Of a stretch of 64,000 nt of DNA, positions 4,971-16,809 are shown in pieces. This DNA is from Acidimicrobiales bacterium (GTDB lineage: Bacteria > Actinomycetota > Acidimicrobiia > Acidimicrobiales > Aldehydirespiratoraceae). Both the position numbers and the translations under genes were made by a program. The stretch covers positions 186,001 to 250,000 of the forward strand of contig JAVJSI010000007.1 in NCBI GenBank assembly GCA_040219515.1. Direction: 5' to 3'. Every line of letters starts with the position of its first letter. Positions within the stretch are counted from its first letter, which is position 1. The notes below the pieces were generated by a model. It was not told the DNA's origin, searched no databases, and worked only from the letters and a program-made list of their open reading frames with translations.

Positions 4971-7406
4971 TCAGTCCTCGCCACGACGGGCCGCGAGCTC
5001 ATCGGGCGAGATGAGCACATCTCGCGCCTTGGACCCGGTCGAGGGGCCGACGACGCCCTTTTCCTCGAGGAGGTCCATGATGCGACCGGCCCGGGCGAAC
5101 CCGACCCGGAGCTTGCGCTGGAGCATCGAGGTGGACCCCAGTTGGGTCTGGACCACGAGCTCCATCGCCTGCACGAACAGGTCGTCGCCGTCGTCCTCCT
5201 CCTGCGGAGGCGCGTCGGTGATGAGGTCGAGCGACGGCGGCGTGTTGGTGACGCCGCCGGGCAACGACGGGGGCAGCTGCGCTGGTTCGCCGCCGGCGCT
5301 CGCAGCACCTCCTCCACCCTCGCCTTCGAACGCCACGGTCTGATCGTCGGTGAACTCCGGCGCCTGATCGCGCCAGTGTTTGACGATCGCCCGGACCTCT
5401 TCCTCCTCGACCCAGCAGCCCTGCACACGGTGCGGCGACGACGACGACGGGCCGAGCATGAGGAGATCGCCCTTGCCCACGAGCCGCTCGGCACCGGGCT
5501 GATCGAGGATCACCCGAGAGTCGGTGAGGCTCGACACCGCGAACGCGAGACGGGCCGGCACGTTGGCCTTGATCACACCGGTGATGACGTTGACCGACGG
5601 GCGCTGGGTGGCGATCACGAGGTGGATTCCGACGGCACGCGCCATCTGGGCGATGCGAGCGATGGAGTCCTCGACGTCGCGGGCAGCAACCATCATGAGG
5701 TCGGCGAGCTCGTCGACGACCACGAGGATGAACGGCAGGCGACGGTACTTCAGCGGTTCGCCACGCTCGTCGACCTCGCCGAGGCCGACCTCGCCGAGGC
5801 CGACCTCGAGCGTGTCGGCGTCGACCGCGTTGTTGTAGCCGGTGATGTCGCGGAAGCCGACCTTGTGGAGCAGGTCGTAGCGCCGCTCCATCTCGCGTAC
5901 CGCCCACGCCAGTGCGTTGGCGGCCTTGCGGGGATCGGTGACGGGCGCAGTGAGGAGGTGGGGGGCCTTGTCGTATTGGCCCATCTCGACCCGCTTCGGG
6001 TCGACGAGGATGAGGCGCACCTGATCGGGCGTGGACCGCATGAGGATCGACGTGAGCAGCGAGTTGAGGCACGACGACTTGCCCGCACCGGTGGCGCCGG
6101 CGATGAGCACGTGGGGCATCGTGGCCAGATTGATCATCATGTTCTTGCCGTTGATGTCGCGACCGATCGCCACCTCGAGTGGATGCGAGGCCTGTCGGGC
6201 CTCTCTCGACCCGAGGATGTCGCCGACGGTGATGATCTCCCGGCTGGTGTTGGGCACCTCGACGCCGATCGCACGGCGTCCCGGAATCGGGGCGAGAATG
6301 CGCACGTCGGGCGACGCCATGGCGTAGGCGATGTCCTTGCGGAGGCTCTCGAGCTTGCTGACCTTCACACCCTCGCCGAGCTCGAGCACATAGCGGGTGA
6401 CGGTGGGCCCGACCACGGGTTCGAGCAGGGTGGTCTCGACACCGAACTGCGCGAGGGCGGCATGGAGAAGCTGGCCGCGAGCAGCGACCTCGGCCGCGTC
6501 GATCTCCTGCTTGTCGCTTCGCGCCAGCATGGCCAGCGGGGGCAGCGTCCAATCGCCGGGGTCCATCACCGGCAGCGCCTGCTGTTCCTGTTCCTTGACC
6601 GGGTCGACCTTCTTCGCCTTGCGCGGCTTCGTCGACGGGTCGGGCTCCATCTCGAGCGCCGCCTCGGCCTCGGCCGCCTCCAGGGCGAGCGTGGCATCTC
6701 GCACGTCGACCGTGGCGTCGGGATTTCCCATGTCGGGGCTGCTCGGGTCGGGAGTGTTGGGGTCGGCGAACAGGCTGCGGAACCCACGCCGCAGTGCGAT
6801 CCATGCCGGGCCGATGACCCGGGCGAAGCCGCTGCCGAGCTCGCGGGCCGACAAGCCGGTGAGGACCATCACCCCGACCAGCGCCAGCGCGATCAGGATC
6901 AGCACACTGCCGGCGAGCGCGAGAAGGCCGTGAAGCGGTCCCCCGACGGCCATGCCGAGCACCCCGCCGGCCGCACCGATCTCGCCGACCCCATTGTCGA
7001 ACCCGGGCCGACCGCGCGACACGTGGAGCAGTCCGGCGAGGGCCACGAGCGTCAGCGCACCGCCGACCGCCACCCGAGCCATTCGCTCCGCTTCCGAGGT
7101 CTCCAACTCGTCACCGCGGATCAGCACGATCCCGAGGCCGACGAGCCCGAGGGGTGCGACCACCCGCAGCAGGCCGAGGCCGAGGGCCAGCCCGTCGTCG
7201 AGTACGTCGCCGACCACGCCGGCGGCGCCGAGCCACACACTGGCCGCAGCCAGGAGGCCCACGAGGATGGCACCGACGCCCCAGATGTCGGCCTGGTGGG
7301 CCGACAGGACCGTGCCGACCGCGTCACGGGACGCCGACGATCCCTTGGTGGCCCGCGACTTCTTCGCCGGGGCGCGTTTCTTGGGCGAATTCGCTCTCGT
7401 GGCCAC
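4971..7406 (-). CDS. ftsK: DNA translocase FtsK/SpoIIIE
   Basis: FtsK pumps chromosomal DNA through the division septum and helps resolve chromosome dimers. The 811-aa protein has a basic N-terminus, about four membrane helices (roughly 35-190), a linker and the motor domain. The motor has Walker A IAGATGAGKSS, Walker B LVVVDELADLM and the RPSVNVITG loop. A C-terminal winged-helix gamma domain (about 740-800, RKLRVGFARAGRIMDLLE) reads polarity sequences on DNA. The start is GTG. In related Actinobacteria ftsK follows rnj and dapA; here four genes are inserted between rnj and ftsK. A short in-frame duplication lies in the motor domain. Confidence 0.96.
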   Translation of the reverse strand: MATRANSPKKRAPAKKSRATKGSSASRDAVGTVLSAHQADIWGVGAILVGLLAAASVWLGAAGVVGDVLDDGLALGLGLLRVVAPLGLVGLGIVLIRGDELETSEAERMARVAVGGALTLVALAGLLHVSRGRPGFDNGVGEIGAAGGVLGMAVGGPLHGLLALAGSVLILIALALVGVMVLTGLSARELGSGFARVIGPAWIALRRGFRSLFADPNTPDPSSPDMGNPDATVDVRDATLALEAAEAEAALEMEPDPSTKPRKAKKVDPVKEQEQQALPVMDPGDWTLPPLAMLARSDKQEIDAAEVAARGQLLHAALAQFGVETTLLEPVVGPTVTRYVLELGEGVKVSKLESLRKDIAYAMASPDVRILAPIPGRRAIGVEVPNTSREIITVGDILGSREARQASHPLEVAIGRDINGKNMMINLATMPHVLIAGATGAGKSSCLNSLLTSILMRSTPDQVRLILVDPKRVEMGQYDKAPHLLTAPVTDPRKAANALAWAVREMERRYDLLHKVGFRDITGYNNAVDADTLEVGLGEVGLGEVDERGEPLKYRRLPFILVVVDELADLMMVAARDVEDSIARIAQMARAVGIHLVIATQRPSVNVITGVIKANVPARLAFAVSSLTDSRVILDQPGAERLVGKGDLLMLGPSSSSPHRVQGCWVEEEEVRAIVKHWRDQAPEFTDDQTVAFEGEGGGGAASAGGEPAQLPPSLPGGVTNTPPSLDLITDAPPQEEDDGDDLFVQAMELVVQTQLGSTSMLQRKLRVGFARAGRIMDLLEEKGVVGPSTGSKARDVLISPDELAARRGED
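5771..5809 (-). repeat. 15-bp in-frame tandem repeat inside ftsK
   Basis: Two perfect copies of CGACCTCGCCGAGGC (5771-5785 and 5786-5800) are followed by a partial copy. They encode a repeated GLGEV unit in the FtsK motor domain just before VVVDELADL. Being a multiple of three, the duplication keeps the frame. Confidence 0.85.
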
Positions 7407-7567: not shown

Positions 7568-10177
7568 TCAGCCGATCGCGGGGCGGAGGACGATGGCGAG
7601 CTCGTCTCGTCCGCTCACATCGAGCCGCCGGTACACGGACCGAAGGTGGTTGTCGACGGTCCGCCGCGAGACCACCAGCCGATCGGCGATCTCCTGGCTC
7701 GAGAGCCCGAGCGCCGCGAGACCGGCGATCTCGTGTTGGCGGGCGGTGAGCCCGGGCGGTGCGCCGACGAGCGCCGGCGGCACCCGGCCGGTGCATCGAC
7801 TCCACCACGCTTCGGCCCGGGCGGCAGACCGCGTGCTCGCGACGTCGTCGGTCGAGTGGCGGGCCGCCTGCGCGGCCGCCTCGGCGGCGAGCAGCGGGCA
7901 CCCGAGCCCGGCGAGGTCGACCGCCACGGCGTCGAGGTCCTCGGCTGCTCGGGCCGCGAGCGCCTCGGCGTGGGCTGCGAACGAGCGCACCAAGGCGCTC
8001 TCGGTCACCGCTGCGATGGCGTGGAGATCCTCGGCCACGAGGTCGGCGGCCCCGAGACGTACGGATTCGTGAAGGCCGACCACACCCCAGAGCCGATGAC
8101 CTGCTTCCATCGCGAGGCGCCCCGACACCGCCGCGGCTTCGGCGCCGCCGCCAGGGTCGCCCGCCACGACGGCCTCCCACGCCCGTCGGCGATGGGTGGC
8201 GATCTCGGCGACCGGCTGGTCGGTGTTGTCGGATCGCTCGGCGATCGCCGCAAGTGTGGCCGCCATCTCCGGCCGGCCCGCCTGCCATGCCGCCGTCGCG
8301 CCGATGGCGGCGGAGAGCGGACGGAGGCCGAAGGGGTCGACGGCGCGGAAGCTGCGATCGGCATCGAACGCGGCGACCGCCGCCGCATCGAGATCACCGG
8401 TGAGCGGCCCGGAGAAGGCGACACACAAGGCCCACATCCCGAGGGGTTCGCCCCGGGCCGCCGCCGCATCCAGGGCCGCCCGGGCCGCCGAATGAGCGTC
8501 GCCGACCCGGCCCCGACCCACGAGGGCGAGATGCTCGCAGACCGCGACTCGGGCGTGCATGAGCGGTTCGGCACCACGGTCGGACACCGCGTCGCGGAGC
8601 TCTCGGAGCACACCATCGATGCCGCCGAGGTCGAGGTGGAGACAACGGAGGAGCGCCACCACCATCAGCTCCTGTGTCTCCCCATCGGTCAGCGCCCGTT
8701 CGGGACCATGCTCGGGCGCCGGGGCGGTGCCCACGGGGTCCACGAACGCCCGCGCGAGATCTCGCTCACGCGCCAGTCGTCGTCTCGCGTCGGCGTCCGC
8801 CACCACGTCGAGGGCAGCATCGAGCCGACGAAGTGCCGTCTGCGGATCCCGGTTGAGCAGAGTGTCAACCTGCGCCTGCACGATCGAGATCTCGGTGCGC
8901 TGTTCGTCGGTGCGGACGTGGCGCGCCGCCTCGTCGAGCACCTGGAGCGCCTCATCGGCGCGTCGGCCGCGACGCAGAGTCTCGGCGAGGACGACATGGA
9001 CCTCGACGTCGCCGACCTCCTCCTCCATCGCCGAGCGGGCGAGCTGCTCGGCCAGCCAGAGATCGGCCTCGCCCATGGCGGCGCGAGCCATCGGACCCAG
9101 ATCGCCGGCCACCGGCACGCCGGATTCGATCGCCCATCGCGCGTGGCGCAACGTCCACGATGCGCCGGTGGGCGGCGCGACCGCGGCCAGCTTCGCCTGT
9201 AGTCGCCGCCGCGCCGTCGGTCCCATGCGACCGACGATCCATCGCGCGACGAGTGCACGAGTCGGCCGGAGCGCCGCCGCCTCGGCCGGCCCCGACACGT
9301 CGACCAGCTCGGCCCGTTCGAGCTCCTCCCGGGCGGCGTCGTCGAGCACCCCGTCGGCGACCTCGAGCGGAAGGGGGGCGCCGAGGGCGACGAGTTCGAA
9401 GTCCCGGCGAGCGGCCTCGCCCACTCCGGACAGGTGCTCGGCGACGAGCGAACGGAGTCCGGGCGAGTCGGCGGGGCCGCCGACCCAGTGCCACACGGCG
9501 GCTTCCGGATCGATGACATCGCCGCGATCGATCGCGTCGAGCAACAGCTCGAGATCCCGCGGTCGACCACCGGTGTGGTCCCAGAGCGCCTGTCCTGCTT
9601 CGCGCGTCAGAGGCCGGTCGCGAACGGCACCGACGAGTCGATCGTGCGCCTCCCGTGAGAGCGGCGCGACCTCGACGATCTCGGTGTGCGTCGTCGCCAA
9701 TGACCACGCGTCGGGCCCGGGCTGCGGCATGTTGCGGACCGAGACGGCGATTCGCGCCCTTCGATGGTCTCGGAGCCGTTCCAGAAGGGCCACCGAGGCC
9801 ACGTCCAACCACTGCGCTCCGTCGATCACGACCATGAGTTCGGCCCCGTCAGCGGATGCGAGCAGATCACGCTCGATCGCCGCGATCATGCGGAGTCGAT
9901 CGCCGCGTTCGATGTCCACTGCCTCGGACGCGAACGGCGCCACCGCTCCGAACGGCACATCGCGCAGGGCAGGCGATGCGGCCACCGCGTGCACGTGCCA
10001 TCCCCGCATCCGTCCGTGCTCGGCCGCGGAGCCGAGGAGACGGCTCGTCCCGACGCCCGGGCGCCCGACGACCGCAAGCGGTCGGCGGACCGGATCGTCG
10101 AGCGCGGCGCGGATTCGTCCGACCTCCGATTCGCGCCCCGTCAGCGGCCATGCCATCGCCGGCATGGTACCGACCAT
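7568..10177 (-). CDS. Large LuxR-family regulator with AAA/NTPase domain (LAL/MalT-like)
   Basis: This 869-aa protein has an N-terminal STAND-like ATPase region (about 12-250), a long helical tetratricopeptide-like middle, and a C-terminal LuxR helix-turn-helix (about 805-865: LTARQHEIAGLAALGLSSQEIADRL is the core). LAL proteins are usually ATP-dependent activators. Here the P-loop reads GRPGVGTSR (38-46), with Thr where the catalytic Lys should be, whereas the Walker B-like VVIDGAQWLD is kept, so ATP hydrolysis may be lost. In-frame starts at 10177, 10165 and 10156 are possible, none with a clear ribosome site. It lies downstream of three LpqH-like lipoprotein genes on the same strand, its natural candidate targets. 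Confidence 0.85.
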   Translation of the reverse strand: MVGTMPAMAWPLTGRESEVGRIRAALDDPVRRPLAVVGRPGVGTSRLLGSAAEHGRMRGWHVHAVAASPALRDVPFGAVAPFASEAVDIERGDRLRMIAAIERDLLASADGAELMVVIDGAQWLDVASVALLERLRDHRRARIAVSVRNMPQPGPDAWSLATTHTEIVEVAPLSREAHDRLVGAVRDRPLTREAGQALWDHTGGRPRDLELLLDAIDRGDVIDPEAAVWHWVGGPADSPGLRSLVAEHLSGVGEAARRDFELVALGAPLPLEVADGVLDDAAREELERAELVDVSGPAEAAALRPTRALVARWIVGRMGPTARRRLQAKLAAVAPPTGASWTLRHARWAIESGVPVAGDLGPMARAAMGEADLWLAEQLARSAMEEEVGDVEVHVVLAETLRRGRRADEALQVLDEAARHVRTDEQRTEISIVQAQVDTLLNRDPQTALRRLDAALDVVADADARRRLARERDLARAFVDPVGTAPAPEHGPERALTDGETQELMVVALLRCLHLDLGGIDGVLRELRDAVSDRGAEPLMHARVAVCEHLALVGRGRVGDAHSAARAALDAAAARGEPLGMWALCVAFSGPLTGDLDAAAVAAFDADRSFRAVDPFGLRPLSAAIGATAAWQAGRPEMAATLAAIAERSDNTDQPVAEIATHRRRAWEAVVAGDPGGGAEAAAVSGRLAMEAGHRLWGVVGLHESVRLGAADLVAEDLHAIAAVTESALVRSFAAHAEALAARAAEDLDAVAVDLAGLGCPLLAAEAAAQAARHSTDDVASTRSAARAEAWWSRCTGRVPPALVGAPPGLTARQHEIAGLAALGLSSQEIADRLVVSRRTVDNHLRSVYRRLDVSGRDELAIVLRPAIG

Positions 10178-10206: not shown

Positions 10207-10836
10207 TCAGCTACATTCGAAGCCGAACGTGACCGGGACCGGCTGGGGCGCCTCGCCTCCGTCCGCAGTGGCCCGGGAGAACGCGAAGGTGTCGATCGCC
10301 ATGCCGTTGCCGGTGGCGTGGCTGCCGTCCACCGAGAAGTTCGTGATGACCGCGCCCTCCGCGCCCGGGTAGGTCGTGGCAATCTCCGGCCCCGCCTCGA
10401 AGATCCGCCAGTTCATCTCGTCCCGCTCGTCGCGCAGGGTCAGCGAGGGCGCTTCCCAGTCGCCGGTGGTCGAGGTCTCCCAGTCCTCCGGTGGGACATC
10501 GATGCTCACTTCGACCCCCTCGTCGTTGCGGAACGTGCCGCTCACTGCGCCGCCGAGCGCGATGCACACCAGTTCCTCCTCGAAGTTGAACTGCTCCCTG
10601 CCGGCGATCGTCAGCGTGGCACTGCCGGTGCCCGTCGTCGGTTCGGACGAGTCGTCGCCGCCGTCGGCGCCGTCGCCGCCGCCAGTGGAATCGTCGCCGG
10701 CGGGAACGGTCGTGCCGTCATCGCTCGCGGTCGTGGTATCGCCGTCGTCGCCGCACGCCGCGACGGTGAGGGCGAGAACGAGCGCCAACGCCGGCGTGAC
10801 GATACGCAGGAAGCCTGAACGAGGATCGGTGGTCAT
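10207..10836 (-). CDS. LpqH-like lipoprotein A
   Basis: This 209-aa exported lipoprotein has a signal peptide with lipobox VAAC (lipidated C28), a Gly/Asp/Ser/Thr linker to about residue 75, and a C-terminal beta-rich domain of about 130 residues. The domain opens with LTIAGREQF, has one Cys in ELVCIA and ends FGFECS, the plan of mycobacterial LpqH (19-kDa antigen). I start at ATG 10836, which has GGAGA about 6 nt upstream, not at earlier in-frame codons. Lipoprotein B upstream shares the PPxDWE motif and the C-terminal Cys, so they are tandem paralogs. Function is unknown; surface display outside the membrane is expected. Confidence 0.82.
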   Translation of the reverse strand: MTTDPRSGFLRIVTPALALVLALTVAACGDDGDTTTASDDGTTVPAGDDSTGGGDGADGGDDSSEPTTGTGSATLTIAGREQFNFEEELVCIALGGAVSGTFRNDEGVEVSIDVPPEDWETSTTGDWEAPSLTLRDERDEMNWRIFEAGPEIATTYPGAEGAVITNFSVDGSHATGNGMAIDTFAFSRATADGGEAPQPVPVTFGFECS

Positions 10837-10862
10837 TGGTGTCTCCATGGTCGGGGTTCGAT

Positions 10863-10905
10863 TCTCTCGGTATTGCGTCTCTCTGTATTGCGGTTCACGG
10901 TTCAC
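10863..10905 (-). repeat. Microrepeats between lipoproteins A and B
   Basis: Two 15-bp units (10863-10877 and 10878-10892) differ at one base and both end TATTGCG. They are followed by a tandem 7-bp GGTTCAC pair (10892-10905) that covers the stop of lipoprotein B. The role is unknown; they may affect spacing or coupling between the two genes. Confidence 0.6.
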
Positions 10906-11491
10906 AGACGACCTCGAAGGTCATGGGCAGCAATGGGGGCGGCTCGGCACCGTCGCCCTCGGCGTCGACCAACGCCTGGCCATCGATCACGTTGCCCGAG
11001 CCGGTCGCCCACCCGTCGCCCATCTCGTACTCCTCGATGCCGGCGAGCGGTGCATCGGTGTCGGGGTAGCGCTCACCGACGTTCCCCGTCGCCTGATAGG
11101 AACGTCGGCCCTCGCCGCTCCGGTCCGTCAGGACGACCTCGGGCGGACCCCATTCGGAGGCCGTGTCGGTCTCCCAGTCGGGGGGCGGCAAATCGATCTC
11201 GACGCGGATGTCGGGCCCGTCGGTGAACAACGAGGTCATGGCCCGCGGATTGGAGATGCACGTGCTCTCCTCGGGGAGCACGTACTGCTCGTCGCCGATC
11301 GTCACCACCGCGCCGACGTCGGCCGACGGTGCGTCGCTCGGCGTGCTGTCGCCCTGCTCCTCATCGACATCGGCAGCGGCATCGATCGGAGGGTCGACGG
11401 AATCACCGGCCGACGGTTCACCGTCGTCGCCGCACGCGCCGAGGACGAGTGAGAGTCCGAAGAGGGTGATGGCAAGCCGTCGTGGGGTCAT
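10895..11491 (-). CDS. LpqH-like lipoprotein B
   Basis: The 198-aa product begins MTPRRLAITL, with a short signal peptide and lipobox LGAC (C20), then an acidic Ser/Asp linker and the same beta domain as lipoprotein A. Shared features are an opening VVTIGDEQY, a Cys in ESTCIS, an IDLPPPDWET motif (IDVPPEDWET in A) and a terminal EVVCEP. The two cysteines could form a disulfide as in LpqH. It sits between lipoprotein A and the large VWD lipoprotein on the same strand, 20 bp downstream of the latter, so the three are probably one transcript. No enzyme motif is visible. Confidence 0.82.
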   Translation of the reverse strand: MTPRRLAITLFGLSLVLGACGDDGEPSAGDSVDPPIDAAADVDEEQGDSTPSDAPSADVGAVVTIGDEQYVLPEESTCISNPRAMTSLFTDGPDIRVEIDLPPPDWETDTASEWGPPEVVLTDRSGEGRRSYQATGNVGERYPDTDAPLAGIEEYEMGDGWATGSGNVIDGQALVDAEGDGAEPPPLLPMTFEVVCEP

Positions 11492-11511
11492 GGGATCAGG
11501 TCCTTCCGGCG

Positions 11512-14145
11512 TCAGGAGACGCAGTCGACTTCGAGGGTGAACGGGTCGAGCGTCGCTCCGGCCGGGAGCTGCGAGAATGGCGCGAGGCCGATCTCGGGCG
11601 GATCGTTGACGTAGAGCTCTCCCGATGCGCTCAGGCGGGAGCCGTCGAGGGTCATGTCATCCACGGCGTCGGCGAAGTGGGCGACGTTCGTGAGCACCCA
11701 GGCGTGGTCGGTGGTCTGGTCGTCGGCAGTCCGCTGCACCGTGAGAGCGAAGCGGGGCTCGGCCGCCAGGTACTGGACGGTGATCGAGTATCGGGGACCG
11801 TCGGCAAGGTCGATCGAGCCGTCGGCGAACAGGTTCCCGTCGGTGACCTGGCAGTCCCACGACGACGGCACCCCACCGTCACGCTGGTTCGGCGGGTCGT
11901 CGCCGAACACGAGCGTGTCGGTGCCGATCGTGAGCACGGTGTCGCCGGGCGTCGCCGCGGTGACGTCAACCGGATCGTCCTGCGCCGGCGACGCGTCGGT
12001 CGCGGGATCCGCAGGCCCGGCAACGATTTGGACCCGGAACGCGTCGTAGGCATACCCGGGATCCCCGGTGATCGCGACATCGATGACGCAGCCCTCGTAG
12101 AACCGATCGTCGACCACCGACGCGGCCCGGCACGCTTCCTCGGCTTCCGTGCGGGCGTCGAGATCGAGATCGTCGAGCGTGATCGTCGTCGATGGGAATC
12201 CATCGATCAGGAACGACTCGGTCGTCTCGCCCGGGCCGTAGTGCAGGAGCGACTCGTCCTGTGAAATCCGCCAGGAGTCGACGTAGATCGCGTAGAACTC
12301 GTCGCGGTTACTGACGATCGACAAGTCATCGATGATCGAGGGATCGAGCTGTTCGCCGTTGCGCGTCCGGAAGTCGTTGGAGGGATCGCCGTCACCGTTG
12401 CCGAGCTGGCCGACGATTTCGCCTGCACTCGCAGCGGGCTGCACGGTGAGCGTCATACCGTTGACCTCACCCCGGTCGAACACATTGACGAGTTGACCGT
12501 CGGGCCATGCGATCGTCCACCCGTCGAGCTGTCCCCACAGCACCTCGGCATCGCCCACCCGGATTCGCTCGCCGCGTTCAAGTTCGCGCCGTTCGCCGTC
12601 GACGAAGGTCCGGCCGCCCCGGTGCATGGCGATCGACTGACCGCCGGTGCTCAGAGCAAACGCCGTGGCGATCGACGCACCCTGGCTGTTGCCGGCCGGT
12701 TCGGCCCGCATCTGGATCACCTCGCTGTCGTTCTCGAAGACGAGGAATTCGCCCACCGCCTGTTGCGCGTAAACCACGCCGTCGAACGTCAGAAAGCGCA
12801 CGTCGCCGTGGGTTCCACCCCTTGGAGGACGAGCATCCGGATCAGGCGGATCCCCGCAACTCAGGAGGGGTTGCCCCTCGGGCTCCGGTTCGTCTTCGTC
12901 GGTGGGTTCGTCGGGGTCGGGTTGGCCGGGCACCGTGGATCCGACCGAGTCCGCGGGGTCGCCGTCGAGCGGGCGCAGGGTCGGGAAGCGGTCCAGCCGG
13001 ATGCCTGCCGACCTGCCCGCCTCGTTCCTCGCGACGAGCGACGAAGCGACACGAGCGCAGACCTCGAGGGTGAGGAGAGATCGGGCATATGCCCAGGCCT
13101 TCCACTGGTTGTCCGTCACATACGAGTGTCCCTGGCCGGAGATGGCGTACGTGTACCGACTGAGACTCGAGCCGTTGCGCTCCCGGGTGACACGAACCCC
13201 GAAGCCGGATCCGGTCGCATTCCCCTGCCCCGCGGAGTCAGTCGCATCAAATTCCTCGGCGGCGTCGCGCTCCGCGGCCCGGACCGCTTCCACGATCGCA
13301 TCTTCCTCCTGCTGGCCGACCACGAATCCCACCGAGAGGCCGAGCTGGCGCTTGCTCTCTCGCGAGAGGATCGTCGACCCTTCGATCACATCGATCGCCG
13401 AGTCGAGCAGAGGTGCCGGCGGACCGCCGCTCCCGACGACCTCGATCAGCCCGGCGTTCCAGCGATGGGCGAACAGCTCGGTCGGGCCCAATCCCTCTTC
13501 GGCGGCCGGATCACCCGGTATCGTCTGGCCGAACAGAGTGAGCGCTGCCACCTCCGCTCCGGGACGGAGCGCGTCAACGAACGTCAGGTCGATCTCCGAG
13601 CGATCTCCGAATCCGACATGCGTGCGCCGTGCGGAGAAGTCCGCACTCACGATCTCGACGAGCGACGGCTCGGCGACCGCCTCACCTGCGAGCGCCTCGG
13701 CCAGTTCCTCGTCCTCGTCGACACCCAACAACGCGGCGAACTCGGCACGGGTCTCGTCGACCGCCGCAGTCGTCGGCGCGAGAAGACCAAAGTCGACCGA
13801 CATGGTCGGGAGCTCCTTTCCGTCCGCATCGACCATGCGGGCGTCGAGGCCGTCGACTGCGGCGAACGTGAAGCCGCCCGCCAAGTCGACGGGCGATCCC
13901 GCATGGCCCGAGACATGATCGAGAATCGGTTCGAAGATGTCGAGGAGCCCTTCGTCGTCGAGTGTCCACAGACCAAAGTGGAGCGTGAAGTCCTGCACCG
14001 CCTGGGTGCCGAGGACGTCGTCGATCGGCGATCCCTCGCCCGGAACAGGTCCAGAGTCCCCACCGCCGCCGTCGTCGCCACACGCTGACGCGATGAGCGC
14101 GGCACACAACAGAATCGCTGACGCCTTCGCTCCGATGGGTGCCAC
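11512..14145 (-). CDS. Large lipoprotein with von Willebrand D and LpqH-like domains
   Basis: The 877-aa lipoprotein (lipobox ASAC, C22; GTG start after GGGAGAGGC) has a unique N-terminal half (about 40-380), then an acidic Pro/Glu linker (402-430). A VWD-type domain follows (about 441-640), with GDVRFLTFDG, GQLGNGDGDPSNDF and DSWRI. After it comes a Cys pair (C672, C686) in the ACRAASVVDD...EGCVIDVA pattern that often follows VWD in bacteria. The C-terminal domain (about 733-877) resembles lipoproteins A and B: DTVLTIGTDTLVF, Cys765, and an end of FTLEVDCVS. VWD domains mediate calcium-dependent assembly or adhesion, so a surface adhesin role is plausible but inferred. It heads the three-gene lipoprotein cluster. 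Confidence 0.85.
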   Translation of the reverse strand: MAPIGAKASAILLCAALIASACGDDGGGGDSGPVPGEGSPIDDVLGTQAVQDFTLHFGLWTLDDEGLLDIFEPILDHVSGHAGSPVDLAGGFTFAAVDGLDARMVDADGKELPTMSVDFGLLAPTTAAVDETRAEFAALLGVDEDEELAEALAGEAVAEPSLVEIVSADFSARRTHVGFGDRSEIDLTFVDALRPGAEVAALTLFGQTIPGDPAAEEGLGPTELFAHRWNAGLIEVVGSGGPPAPLLDSAIDVIEGSTILSRESKRQLGLSVGFVVGQQEEDAIVEAVRAAERDAAEEFDATDSAGQGNATGSGFGVRVTRERNGSSLSRYTYAISGQGHSYVTDNQWKAWAYARSLLTLEVCARVASSLVARNEAGRSAGIRLDRFPTLRPLDGDPADSVGSTVPGQPDPDEPTDEDEPEPEGQPLLSCGDPPDPDARPPRGGTHGDVRFLTFDGVVYAQQAVGEFLVFENDSEVIQMRAEPAGNSQGASIATAFALSTGGQSIAMHRGGRTFVDGERRELERGERIRVGDAEVLWGQLDGWTIAWPDGQLVNVFDRGEVNGMTLTVQPAASAGEIVGQLGNGDGDPSNDFRTRNGEQLDPSIIDDLSIVSNRDEFYAIYVDSWRISQDESLLHYGPGETTESFLIDGFPSTTITLDDLDLDARTEAEEACRAASVVDDRFYEGCVIDVAITGDPGYAYDAFRVQIVAGPADPATDASPAQDDPVDVTAATPGDTVLTIGTDTLVFGDDPPNQRDGGVPSSWDCQVTDGNLFADGSIDLADGPRYSITVQYLAAEPRFALTVQRTADDQTTDHAWVLTNVAHFADAVDDMTLDGSRLSASGELYVNDPPEIGLAPFSQLPAGATLDPFTLEVDCVS

Positions 14146-14255: not shown

Positions 14256-15917
14256 TCAGCCTTCCCGGACCATCGGCACGATCATGGGCCGGCGGCGGGT
14301 CCGATCGGCCACCGTCTGGCCGGCGGCGCGGCGGGTGATCTGGTTGAGCTTCTCCAGATCCTTCTCGCCGCCCTTCATCGCCTTGCGCAGATCGCGCTCG
14401 ACCGCAGCGGCCACAGCGTCCTCGTGGGCGAGAAGGGCCGGCTTCTCGACCCATCCCCTCGACACCACGTCGGGGCCCGCGATGATCTCGCCGTCGTCGA
14501 GGTCGACGTGGACCACGACCGAGACGAAGCCGTCGTCGCCGAGCACGCGGCGATCGCCGAGAACCGCGTTGCCGAGATCGCCGACCATGCCGTCGACATA
14601 GACACGGTCGGTGCCGATCGATCCGAGATGGTTGATGCCGTCGTCGGTGATCTCGATCTGGTCGCCGTCTTCGCAGAAGACCACACGGTCCTCGGGCATG
14701 CCCATCCGGTACGCCAGGTCGCGATGGGCGACGAGATGGGCGTATTCGCCATGGACCGGCGTGAACCACTCGGGGACGGCCACCGAATGCAGCGTCGCCA
14801 GCTCCGACTGCTTGCCGTGGCCGCTGGTGTGCACGTCGACCTGACCGCTGTGGAGCACCTTGGCCCCGAGGCGGGCGAGGCCGTTGCGGACCGAGGCCAC
14901 CGCGGCCTCGTTGCCGGGGATCGGGTGGGAGCTGAAGACGACGGTGTCGTTGTCGTCGAGCTTCATCCAGCGGCTCTCGCCGATCGCCATCTGGGTGAGC
15001 GCAGCGCGGGGCTCACCCTGCGATCCGGTGCAGACGACGCAGATGCGCTCGGGATCGAGGTCGTCGATGTCTTCTATGTCGCGGATGTGGGCGTCGGGGA
15101 TGCGGAGGATGCCCACGTCTCGCGCCAGCTTCACGTTGCGGCGCATCGACAGCCCGAGGGTGACGAGCACCCGCCCCGTCTCGACTGCAGCGTCGGCGAT
15201 CTGCTGGATGCGGTGGATGTGGCTGGCGAATGAGGCGATGATCACGCGCCGGCCCTCCTGCTCACGCATGACGGCCCGCAGCGCCGCACCGACGTCCTTC
15301 TCCGAGCGGGAGGCGCCGGGCTGATCCGCGTTGGTCGAGTCGGCCAGCAGCAGCCGGATGCCCGGGTCCCAACCCAGCGCGCCGATGCGGGAGAGGTCGG
15401 TACGGCGCCCGTCGACCGGCGTGAGGTCGAGCTTGAAATCGCTCGAGTGAAGGATGACGCCCTGATCGGTGTGGAACGCGGTGATGTTGCCCGACGGGAT
15501 GGAGTGGGTGACCGGGAGGAACTCGCAGTCGAAGGGCCCGACCATGCCCCGGTCGCCGTCCTTGATCTCGCGGAGTTGGGCCTTGTCGAGCAGCCGCACT
15601 TCCTTGAGCTTGTGCTGCACCAGGCCGAGGGTGAAGGCCGAGCCGTAGATGGGGGCCGAGAGATGGGCCATGAGGTACGGCAATGCGCCGATGTGGTCCT
15701 CATGGGCGTGGGTGGCGATGATCGCCTCGACCCGGTCGGCATTTTCGATCAGATAACTGAGATCGGGAAGCACGGCGTCGACGCCGGGCAGGTCGTCGCC
15801 CGCGAACATCTGCCCGCAGTCGAGGACGACGATGCGTCCCTCGGTTTCGATCGCCGCACAGTTGCGGCCGATCTGGCCGAGGCCGCCGAGGAACGTGATC
15901 TTGACGGGTGCGGCCAT
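14256..15917 (-). CDS. rnj: Ribonuclease J
   Basis: RNase J is a metallo-beta-lactamase/beta-CASP nuclease that processes and degrades RNA endonucleolytically and 5'-to-3'. The 553-aa protein has the zinc-binding THAHEDHIG near residue 75, DCGQMFAG, a beta-CASP region with GSQGEPRAAL, and PVHGEYAHL toward the C-terminus. The length is typical. I start at ATG 15917 (MAAPVKITFLGG) because the upstream extension lies within dapA. Only 1 bp separates it from the dapA stop, so the two are co-translated, as in mycobacteria and streptomycetes. Confidence 0.95.
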   Translation of the reverse strand: MAAPVKITFLGGLGQIGRNCAAIETEGRIVVLDCGQMFAGDDLPGVDAVLPDLSYLIENADRVEAIIATHAHEDHIGALPYLMAHLSAPIYGSAFTLGLVQHKLKEVRLLDKAQLREIKDGDRGMVGPFDCEFLPVTHSIPSGNITAFHTDQGVILHSSDFKLDLTPVDGRRTDLSRIGALGWDPGIRLLLADSTNADQPGASRSEKDVGAALRAVMREQEGRRVIIASFASHIHRIQQIADAAVETGRVLVTLGLSMRRNVKLARDVGILRIPDAHIRDIEDIDDLDPERICVVCTGSQGEPRAALTQMAIGESRWMKLDDNDTVVFSSHPIPGNEAAVASVRNGLARLGAKVLHSGQVDVHTSGHGKQSELATLHSVAVPEWFTPVHGEYAHLVAHRDLAYRMGMPEDRVVFCEDGDQIEITDDGINHLGSIGTDRVYVDGMVGDLGNAVLGDRRVLGDDGFVSVVVHVDLDDGEIIAGPDVVSRGWVEKPALLAHEDAVAAAVERDLRKAMKGGEKDLEKLNQITRRAAGQTVADRTRRRPMIVPMVREG

Positions 15918-15918
15918 C

Positions 15919-16809
15919 TCAGGCTCGCCCGAGATCGGCGAGCACGGTCTTCGCGTCGGCTTCGAGGAAGTCGGGTTCGGGGCCCATCGGCATCCGGGTG
16001 GGGCCGCCGGGCAGGCCGAGGACACGGAGCATCGCCTTGGTCGGGATGGGGTTGGGGGCGAGGTCGCCGGTCTCGAATTCATACGACGGGATCAGCCGTC
16101 GGTTGATCTCTGCTGCCTTGTGCACATCGCCCCCGAAGAACGCGTTCATCATGTCGGTCGTTTCGTTGCCGATCCAGTGGGTGGCGACGCCGATCACGCC
16201 GACACCGCCGATCGCCATCAGTGCGAGCGTGAGGCCGTCGTCGCCGCTGTAGACCTCGGTGCCCTCCGGTGCCAGCGCGAGCATGCGGGCCGTCTCCGCC
16301 GGGTTGGCGGCCGCGTCCTTGACGCCGATGATGTTCTCGACGTCGGCGAAGAGATCGACCATCGTCTCGGTGGCGATCTTGCGGCCGGTACGCCCCGGAA
16401 TGTCGTAGAGCAGGATCGGAAGGTCGGTCGCGGCGGCGCAGGCCCGGAAGTGCTCGCTGAGCCCCGCCTGCGACGGGCGGTTGTAGTAGCCGGCCACGTG
16501 GAGGATGCCGTGGGCGCCGGCCGCGGTGGCTCGCTTCGTCAGCTCGACTGCGGCCCTGGTGTCGTTGCTGCCGGCGCCGGCGATCACCGGCTTGTCGGTC
16601 GCTTCCACGACGGCACTGATCAGGGCGATCTGCTCGTCGTGCGTGAGTGTGGGGCTCTCGCCGGTGGTACCGGCGATGACCAGGCCGTCGTTGCCGCCCT
16701 CGGTCGTGAGATGCGCGGCCAGCGCCTGCGCGCCGTCGAGGTCGAGTGACCCGTCGGCCTTGAAAGGGGACACCATGGCGGTGAGGACCCGTCCGAAACG
16801 TGCTTCCAT
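15919..16809 (-). CDS. dapA: 4-hydroxy-tetrahydrodipicolinate synthase
   Basis: DapA condenses pyruvate with aspartate semialdehyde, committing carbon to diaminopimelate and lysine. The 296-aa TIM barrel shows GTTGESPTLTHDE, the catalytic Tyr in YYNRPSQ, YDIPGRTG and the Schiff-base Lys in GVKDAAANP. The start at ATG 16809 (MEARFGRVLTAMVSPF) fits the family; longer readings are not conserved. It follows dapB, SURF1 and a small winged-helix gene on the same strand and precedes rnj by 1 bp. Confidence 0.96.
   Translation of the reverse strand: MEARFGRVLTAMVSPFKADGSLDLDGAQALAAHLTTEGGNDGLVIAGTTGESPTLTHDEQIALISAVVEATDKPVIAGAGSNDTRAAVELTKRATAAGAHGILHVAGYYNRPSQAGLSEHFRACAAATDLPILLYDIPGRTGRKIATETMVDLFADVENIIGVKDAAANPAETARMLALAPEGTEVYSGDDGLTLALMAIGGVGVIGVATHWIGNETTDMMNAFFGGDVHKAAEINRRLIPSYEFETGDLAPNPIPTKAMLRVLGLPGGPTRMPMGPEPDFLEADAKTVLADLGRA

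Follow-up and report, generated by a model that had tools for sequence, protein, structure and literature searches.

Between rnj and ftsK in the genome of an Acidimicrobiales bacterium (GenBank assembly GCA_040219515.1, contig JAVJSI010000007.1) lies an island of four genes in the same direction on the minus strand: a multidomain predicted lipoprotein of 877 residues (BIG; 11512..14145, GTG start), two small predicted lipoproteins (LipB, 198 residues, 10895..11491; LipA, 232 residues, 10207..10905) and a LuxR-type regulator. The 64,000-nucleotide stretch of this contig that was analysed is referred to as the window, and all coordinates without a prefix are positions in it. Predicted structures support the domain of LipA and the C-terminus of BIG as LpqH-fold domains that lie outside the LpqH family PF05481, and the domain of LipB is assigned the same fold by its homology to LipA. 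In BIG, the LpqH-like domain is joined to a von Willebrand D (VWD) domain. LpqH is a much-studied tuberculosis antigen, but its ordinary function in the bacterium has not been settled. The genes, their domains, synteny and substitution rates, together with the folds predicted for the LpqH-like domains of LipA and BIG, are well supported. A tentative reading is that this is a regulated surface-lipoprotein island encoding a complex for assembly or adhesion at the cell surface, whose contacts would be made by the LpqH-fold domains.

The LpqH-like domains are encoded on the minus strand at 10210..10626 (LipA), 10898..11314 (LipB, by alignment to LipA only) and 11515..11946 (BIG residues 734-877, with Cys765 and Cys875). 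The LipA domain was modelled with AlphaFold2 from an alignment of four sequences, to which the L012 and L064 relatives did not contribute. Of the five models, the best reached a predicted local distance difference test (pLDDT) score of 89.3 and the other four 38-66. A Foldseek search with this model returned nothing at E <= 0.001, and LpqH was absent among the best 50 rows. When the 1000 best Foldseek chains were compared with a second structural aligner, the top three ranks were held by LpqH entries (4zjm, Z 10.2; 4xin, 9.9; 7fds, 9.3), the same three that searching the PDB by sequence retrieves for LpqH. The next match was HtaA at Z 7.5, and avidin-type barrels reached up to 6.8; with this aligner, a Z under 8 may reflect only a common arrangement. 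For the C-terminus of BIG (model residues 731-877), the same entries scored Z 9.8 (4xin), 9.3 (4zjm) and 8.6 (7fds), and the rows that followed scored 6.7 and 6.5. Identity to the LpqH structures is 14-18% over the aligned residues for both models. The strongest point for a predicted LpqH fold is that two models built from different alignments pick the identical three entries.

The initial annotation had likened these domains to LpqH from their cysteines and strand pattern. The likeness holds for the predicted fold and the two-cysteine pattern, is weak and uncertain in profile comparisons, and does not extend to the family hidden Markov model (HMM). PF05481 gave zero matches in BIG, LipA and LipB at E 1, and its best score in the whole genome was 11.9 bits (cut-off 23), away from these genes. 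Membership of the three proteins in PF05481 at the sequence level is thus rejected. Among 296 genomes sampled across the phylum, PF05481 matched six (five over the cut-off), all from family f79. Taken with the fold results, this suggests that PF05481 misses distant relatives. All 23 PF05481 domains extracted have exactly two cysteines, one at residue 19-25 and one at or near the end; these were 23 of 24 matches, the omitted one being partial and below the cut-off. The early and terminal cysteines are likewise invariant in 8/8 C-termini of BIG-type proteins and in 6/6 relatives of LipA and LipB. With hhalign, the LipA/LipB family aligned to LpqH over 26 columns (E 0.016, probability 3%) and the BIG C-termini over 38 columns (E 1.6e-4, probability 50%), and in both cases none of 200 shuffled controls scored as high. 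When 11 LipA-type sequences were used, the probability was 8% over 30 columns for LpqH and 23% over 120 columns for the BIG C-termini, again with 0/200 shuffles.

A domain shared by all three proteins had also been claimed, and this is confirmed, on evidence that differs between them. LipA and LipB are clear homologues (32% identity by BLASTP, E 9e-24), whereas the C-terminus of BIG is tied to them only by profile and fold and not by BLASTP, in which the top-scoring alignment fell on the signal peptide, with E 0.007 and 0.057, and the domains gave nothing meaningful. The profile of the LipA/LipB family (six rows) aligned with that of the BIG C-termini (eight rows) over 120 columns at E 0.0031 with a probability of 10%, and 0/200 column-shuffled controls scored as high.

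The VWD domain of BIG (residues 446-597, 12355..12810, minus strand) is confirmed by HMM, by profile and by predicted fold. PF00094 matched it at E 9.7e-8 with 32.9 bits (cut-off 22.9), and BIG is the sole VWD match of its genome at E <= 1. A profile of five BIG-type proteins matched FCGBP at E 2e-19 among the sequences of solved structures. The VWD region of the BIG model aligned with MUC5AC, FCGBP, VWF and MUC2 at Z 12-13 (MUC5AC 9gvj, 12.8; FCGBP 8qci, 12.5). This AlphaFold2 model, for which seven BIG-type proteins were aligned, has a mean pLDDT of 51.6, with blocks of 24-66 in the VWD domain and 43-77 in the C-terminus. An acidic loop, GNGDGDPSND (12370..12405, minus strand), contains D587 and D591, which are invariant in 7/7 BIG-type proteins. 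Such loops have a calcium role in animal VWD domains, and by analogy the loop in BIG is a possible, predicted calcium site. VWD domains also occur in blood-clotting and mucus proteins, and they have adhesive and assembly roles in animals.

The remainder of BIG is less readily named. Its signal peptide and lipobox (IASAC, 14080..14145, minus strand) end at Cys22, a cysteine present in 7/7 rows of the BIG alignment, and this residue is probably lipidated, as predicted from the lipobox. The N-terminal domain (approximately residues 46-275, 13321..14010, minus strand) had zero matches in a Pfam scan; an HMM built from it also detects the VWD proteins L087 (E 8.6e-11) and L086 (E 6.5e-6), which belong to another family of the order. 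Examples of VWD proteins elsewhere in the order are located at L087:4018-7227, L086:1411-4989 and L085:2997-6635. Since BIG shares its N-terminal domain with two of these proteins, the C-terminal partner of the VWD domain looks exchangeable, being a PQQ/BamB propeller in L087 and the LpqH fold in BIG. An acidic, proline-rich linker separates the N-terminal part of BIG from the VWD domain. The region after the VWD domain (residues 598-705, 12031..12354, minus strand) resembles the C-terminal part of RGM, with an RGM_C match at residues 665-702 (E 0.002, 17.7 bits) that is under the cut-off of 27, and its Cys672 and Cys686 are both kept in 7/7 aligned BIG-type proteins. RGM_C matches below the cut-off also follow VWD domains in two other bacterial proteins (L017:7890-9680 and L085:2997-6635), the former also with a match to C8-3 of MUC4. 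In view of these matches, a pairing of VWD with a C8-like segment may be common to bacteria and animals.

BIG, LipB and LipA lie where they had been annotated, as three adjacent minus-strand open reading frames of predicted lipoproteins, each with a signal peptide and a lipobox-like cysteine (by eye, C22 in BIG, C20 in LipB and C51 in LipA counted from GTG). Their endings (FGFECS, MTFEVVCEP, FTLEVDCVS) and the motifs GDVRFLTFDG and GNGDGDPSNDF are all present as quoted. For LipA, a true start further in is more likely, a later ATG being favoured over the GTG. A fourth gene that accompanies the set had been left out, namely the LuxR-type regulator (7568..10177, minus strand), which begins 29 bases downstream of LipA. 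It carries an AAA_16 ATPase domain (PF13191, residues 12-141, E 1.4e-9) and a LuxR domain (PF00196, residues 810-863, E 5.4e-12), both of which exceed their cut-offs. BIG and LipB are separated by 20 bases, and LipB and LipA overlap if the GTG of LipA is used. The regulator is probably in the same operon as the lipoprotein genes. In a scan for promoters and terminators, a single promoter-like site was found where shuffled sequence gave 0.3 on average, and a pair of terminator-like sites where it gave 1.7, which favours neither side.

The island is flanked upstream by rnj, encoding ribonuclease J (14256..16082, minus strand; PF22505, PF17770), and downstream by ftsK (4971..7406, minus strand; PF01580, PF17854, PF09397). 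The proposal that it interrupts this neighbourhood is upheld by the survey of relatives. A match to rnj was found in five relatives of the genus, while the search gave zero match in a sixth, G005. The ribonuclease J of G003 and G004 is 91% and 89% identical to that of the window. In G003 the genes follow each other as in the window and both small lipoproteins are present, LipB having an orthologue there, and G004 has one lipoprotein; LipA has relatives at the equivalent place in both genomes, as does the regulator. BIG, the lipoprotein or lipoproteins and the LuxR-type gene stand together between rnj and ftsK in 3/3 genomes of the genus that have the island. In G002 and G006, rnj and ftsK are present with none of the island genes between them (2/2), and in G001 the contig stops just beyond rnj. 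The gap between rnj and ftsK appears to be an insertion spot. Both G003 (L013:3765-5231, from a Pfam run) and G004 (L012:2346-4484, by similarity to the G003 copy) have a DUF222-HNH gene between the regulator and ftsK that is absent from the window. The corresponding gap in G002 holds a possible other open reading frame (L026:2863-3621).

The genes of all three lipoproteins are conserved and evolve under purifying selection, with ratios of nonsynonymous to synonymous rates of approximately 0.27-0.48 against the G003 orthologues, the synonymous rate of BIG (1.09) being close to saturation. Amino acid identity to G003 is 46% for BIG, 54% for LipB, 68% for LipA, 79% for the regulator, 86% for ftsK and 93% for rnj, and BIG is therefore the fastest-changing among the six genes compared. 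Exposed surface proteins often evolve fast. Within BIG, the LpqH-like domain is the best-kept domain in 3/3 pairs of island copies (identity 0.62, 0.62 and 0.74). Its identity between the island copies and the two non-island copies in the alignment is 0.28-0.36, and between the window copy and three further non-island copies 0.35-0.37. A tree of this domain gives support 100 to the split between the three island copies and the remaining five. The combination of high identity within the island and low identity outside it suggests that the LpqH-like domain of island BIG proteins has a partner, for which LipA and LipB would be the obvious candidates. In trees of the other BIG domains, the island copies are not grouped with good support; the tree of the N-terminal domain splits the window and G003 copies from G004 and the rest (support 85), so that island copies do not stand together in every domain. 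Domain recombination may have occurred in BIG; in the separate trees, the VWD domain of the window is placed with low support (46 and 37).

A BIG search of 100 genomes matched six, the window's own included; matches in G003, G004 and G005 cover most of the length, and those in G055 and G020 cover the VWD part only. Six BIG loci came from scanning named genomes, all labelled Acidimicrobiia, Acidimicrobiales, Acidimicrobiaceae or "bacterium"; four of them coincide with contigs of G003 (two), G005 and G654. In total, eight full-length BIG-type proteins including that of the window were compared. Across 397 genomes of the order, its own included, LipA-type lipoproteins were found in at least seven and VWD in 13, and the C-terminal domain of BIG was strong in at least two (G000, the genome of the window, and G654); the LipA-type and C-terminal domain counts are lower bounds, with at most 10 candidates scored per genome. 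Four further genomes with C-terminal domain matches at E 0.005-0.009 were read and set aside as not relative-like. LipA-type proteins and VWD occur together in three genomes of the order (Fisher p 0.0009), a test that is given little weight, as it assumes that both 397-genome samples are identical and one genus supplies two of the three. Approximately 10 kb from the full BIG gene of G654, the same contig carries roughly one half of a further BIG-type C-terminal domain (L099:1000-1725; E 8.5e-16 in a local search). LipA-type lipoproteins of other families of the order (L101-L105) carry a varied PPEDWET-like stretch and a glycine-rich stretch (e.g. SGTATFID) ahead of the terminal cysteine, and they look like an unnamed family.

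We infer lipidation, co-transcription, complex formation, calcium binding, adhesion and regulation as parts of one arrangement. BIG would be held in the cytoplasmic membrane by a lipid on Cys22, and its linker would let the VWD domain, possibly calcium-bound, and the terminal LpqH-fold domain project through the wall. LipB and LipA would be short lipoproteins whose LpqH folds reach through the wall on low-complexity tethers. Most likely, the three proteins would act together in a single envelope complex, in which the LpqH-fold domains would provide contacts or bind ligands and the VWD domain would face outward as the adhesive part, while the LuxR-type ATPase regulator would set the timing of island production. 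Mycobacterial LpqH has been described as a presumed adhesin for lectin receptors (PMC5341126), and animal VWD domains have been associated with adhesion (PMC12419801); both are analogies. The latter paper also describes VWD domains among the secreted proteins of several lineages, including myxobacteria.

Several observations weigh against a surface adhesion or assembly complex. The adhesion role is plausible by analogy, being carried over from animal VWD domains and mycobacterial LpqH, and a shared fold does not mean a shared function. The VWD domain of BIG has GDVR, GDVH or GDIR in place of GDPH in 7/7 aligned BIG-type proteins, and residues 446-597 contain zero cysteines in the same seven. 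The cysteines and GDPH of animal VWD proteins serve polymerisation or cleavage, GDPH autocleavage being confined to some members. The LpqH fold itself rests on predicted models from thin alignments, only one of the five LipA models being good and the C-terminus of BIG having a pLDDT of 43-77. A LipA-type partner is established beside only 3/8 full-length BIG loci; four others (the G003 paralogue, Ww174, Ww197 and Ww195) lack one in the flanks examined, some of which are short, and a LipA relative occurs in G014, where the BIG search gave zero match. The parts are therefore not mutually required everywhere. The BIG copy of G005 is followed by a small two-cysteine lipoprotein of 164 residues (L014:7592-8086) and then by a BTAD-type regulator on the opposite strand (L014:8135-10456). 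This lipoprotein looks LpqH-like by eye, and profile tests were unclear: out of 200 shuffles, 18, 3 and 2 scored at least as high as the real comparison with the BIG C-termini, LipA/LipB and LpqH, respectively, and a reversed LpqH control scored 17.6 against the real 15.9. It has not been counted as a family member.

Other explanations can account for parts of the same evidence. It is unlikely that the island serves ligand capture, in which the LpqH-fold domains would bind heme, lipid or similar and pass it among LipA, LipB and BIG, with the VWD domain as a spacer from the membrane. The conserved regions of HtaA and ChtA from Corynebacterium bind heme, and HtaA conserved-region domains are among the next fold matches of both models (Z 7.5 and 6.5); however, these values fall in the range in which only a common arrangement may be reflected, avidin-type barrels score up to 6.8, and Pfam assigned the island proteins to no transporter or heme family. 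A signalling rather than adhesion unit is about equally improbable. Here, the LuxR-type ATPase would sense the envelope state through BIG and the lipoproteins, directly or via a missing partner. The regulator adjoins the lipoproteins in 3/3 islands and the G005 copy of BIG is also near a regulator of another type, but the BTAD gene there, encoded on the opposite strand, may be a chance neighbour, and the Pfam matches of the LuxR-type regulator include no membrane part, a link between surface and regulator having been sought only among those matches. Somewhat more doubtful still is that the genes have no common function and are fast-evolving lipoproteins with widespread beta folds, brought together by chance in the insertion spot. 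The DUF222-HNH gene and the possible reading frame of G002 in the same spot would fit this, as would the fact that at least half of the BIG copies elsewhere have no proven partner; against it, the window and its two relatives with closely similar ribonuclease J have the same gene order and conserve the same domain.

A bolder proposal, considered rather improbable, is that the LpqH fold serves protein-protein assembly, as a surface module older and more widespread among actinobacteria. LipA and LipB would then bind the LpqH-like head of BIG or each other, a calcium-stabilised surface structure would be displayed via the VWD domain, and mycobacterial LpqH would be a stripped-down descendant. The significance of the island lies in the LpqH fold, which seems to reach beyond its HMM into Acidimicrobiia, fused to VWD and beside a regulator. 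The island is a new lead on the purpose of this fold and a harmless system in which its role can be tested. The pairing of VWD with LpqH was not found in the open-licence literature searched by titles and the beginnings of abstracts; both words occur in PMC11925935 and PMC7284617.

The nearest known systems agree with the island in some features and differ in others. LpqH, the 19-kDa lipoprotein (PF05481; 4zjm, 7fds, 4xin), is likewise a lipoprotein with a low-complexity tether, one C-terminal beta domain and two cysteines, and by structural alignment it has its fold in common with the LipA and BIG models. The island differs in that its domains are without a PF05481 match and one copy is fused to VWD, with the others adjoining. 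The HtaA/ChtA conserved region of Corynebacterium is the next-best or near next-best fold of both LpqH-like domains, whereas the island proteins are without any heme family match in Pfam. The VWD domains of mucins, VWF, FCGBP and RGM share with BIG the start motif G-D-x-x-x-x-T-x-D-G, the acidic loop and, below the cut-off, an RGM_C-like segment that follows, but BIG is a predicted bacterial lipoprotein without the VWD cysteines and GDPH. Closer at hand, L087 and L085 have the VWD domain and the following segment as in BIG, and L086 and L087 also have its N-terminal domain; at the C-terminal end, L087 carries its propeller, L085 laminin-G domains and BIG the LpqH fold. The regulator of the island resembles the LuxR-type large ATPase regulators (LAL) in having an N-terminal ATPase and a C-terminal LuxR helix-turn-helix.

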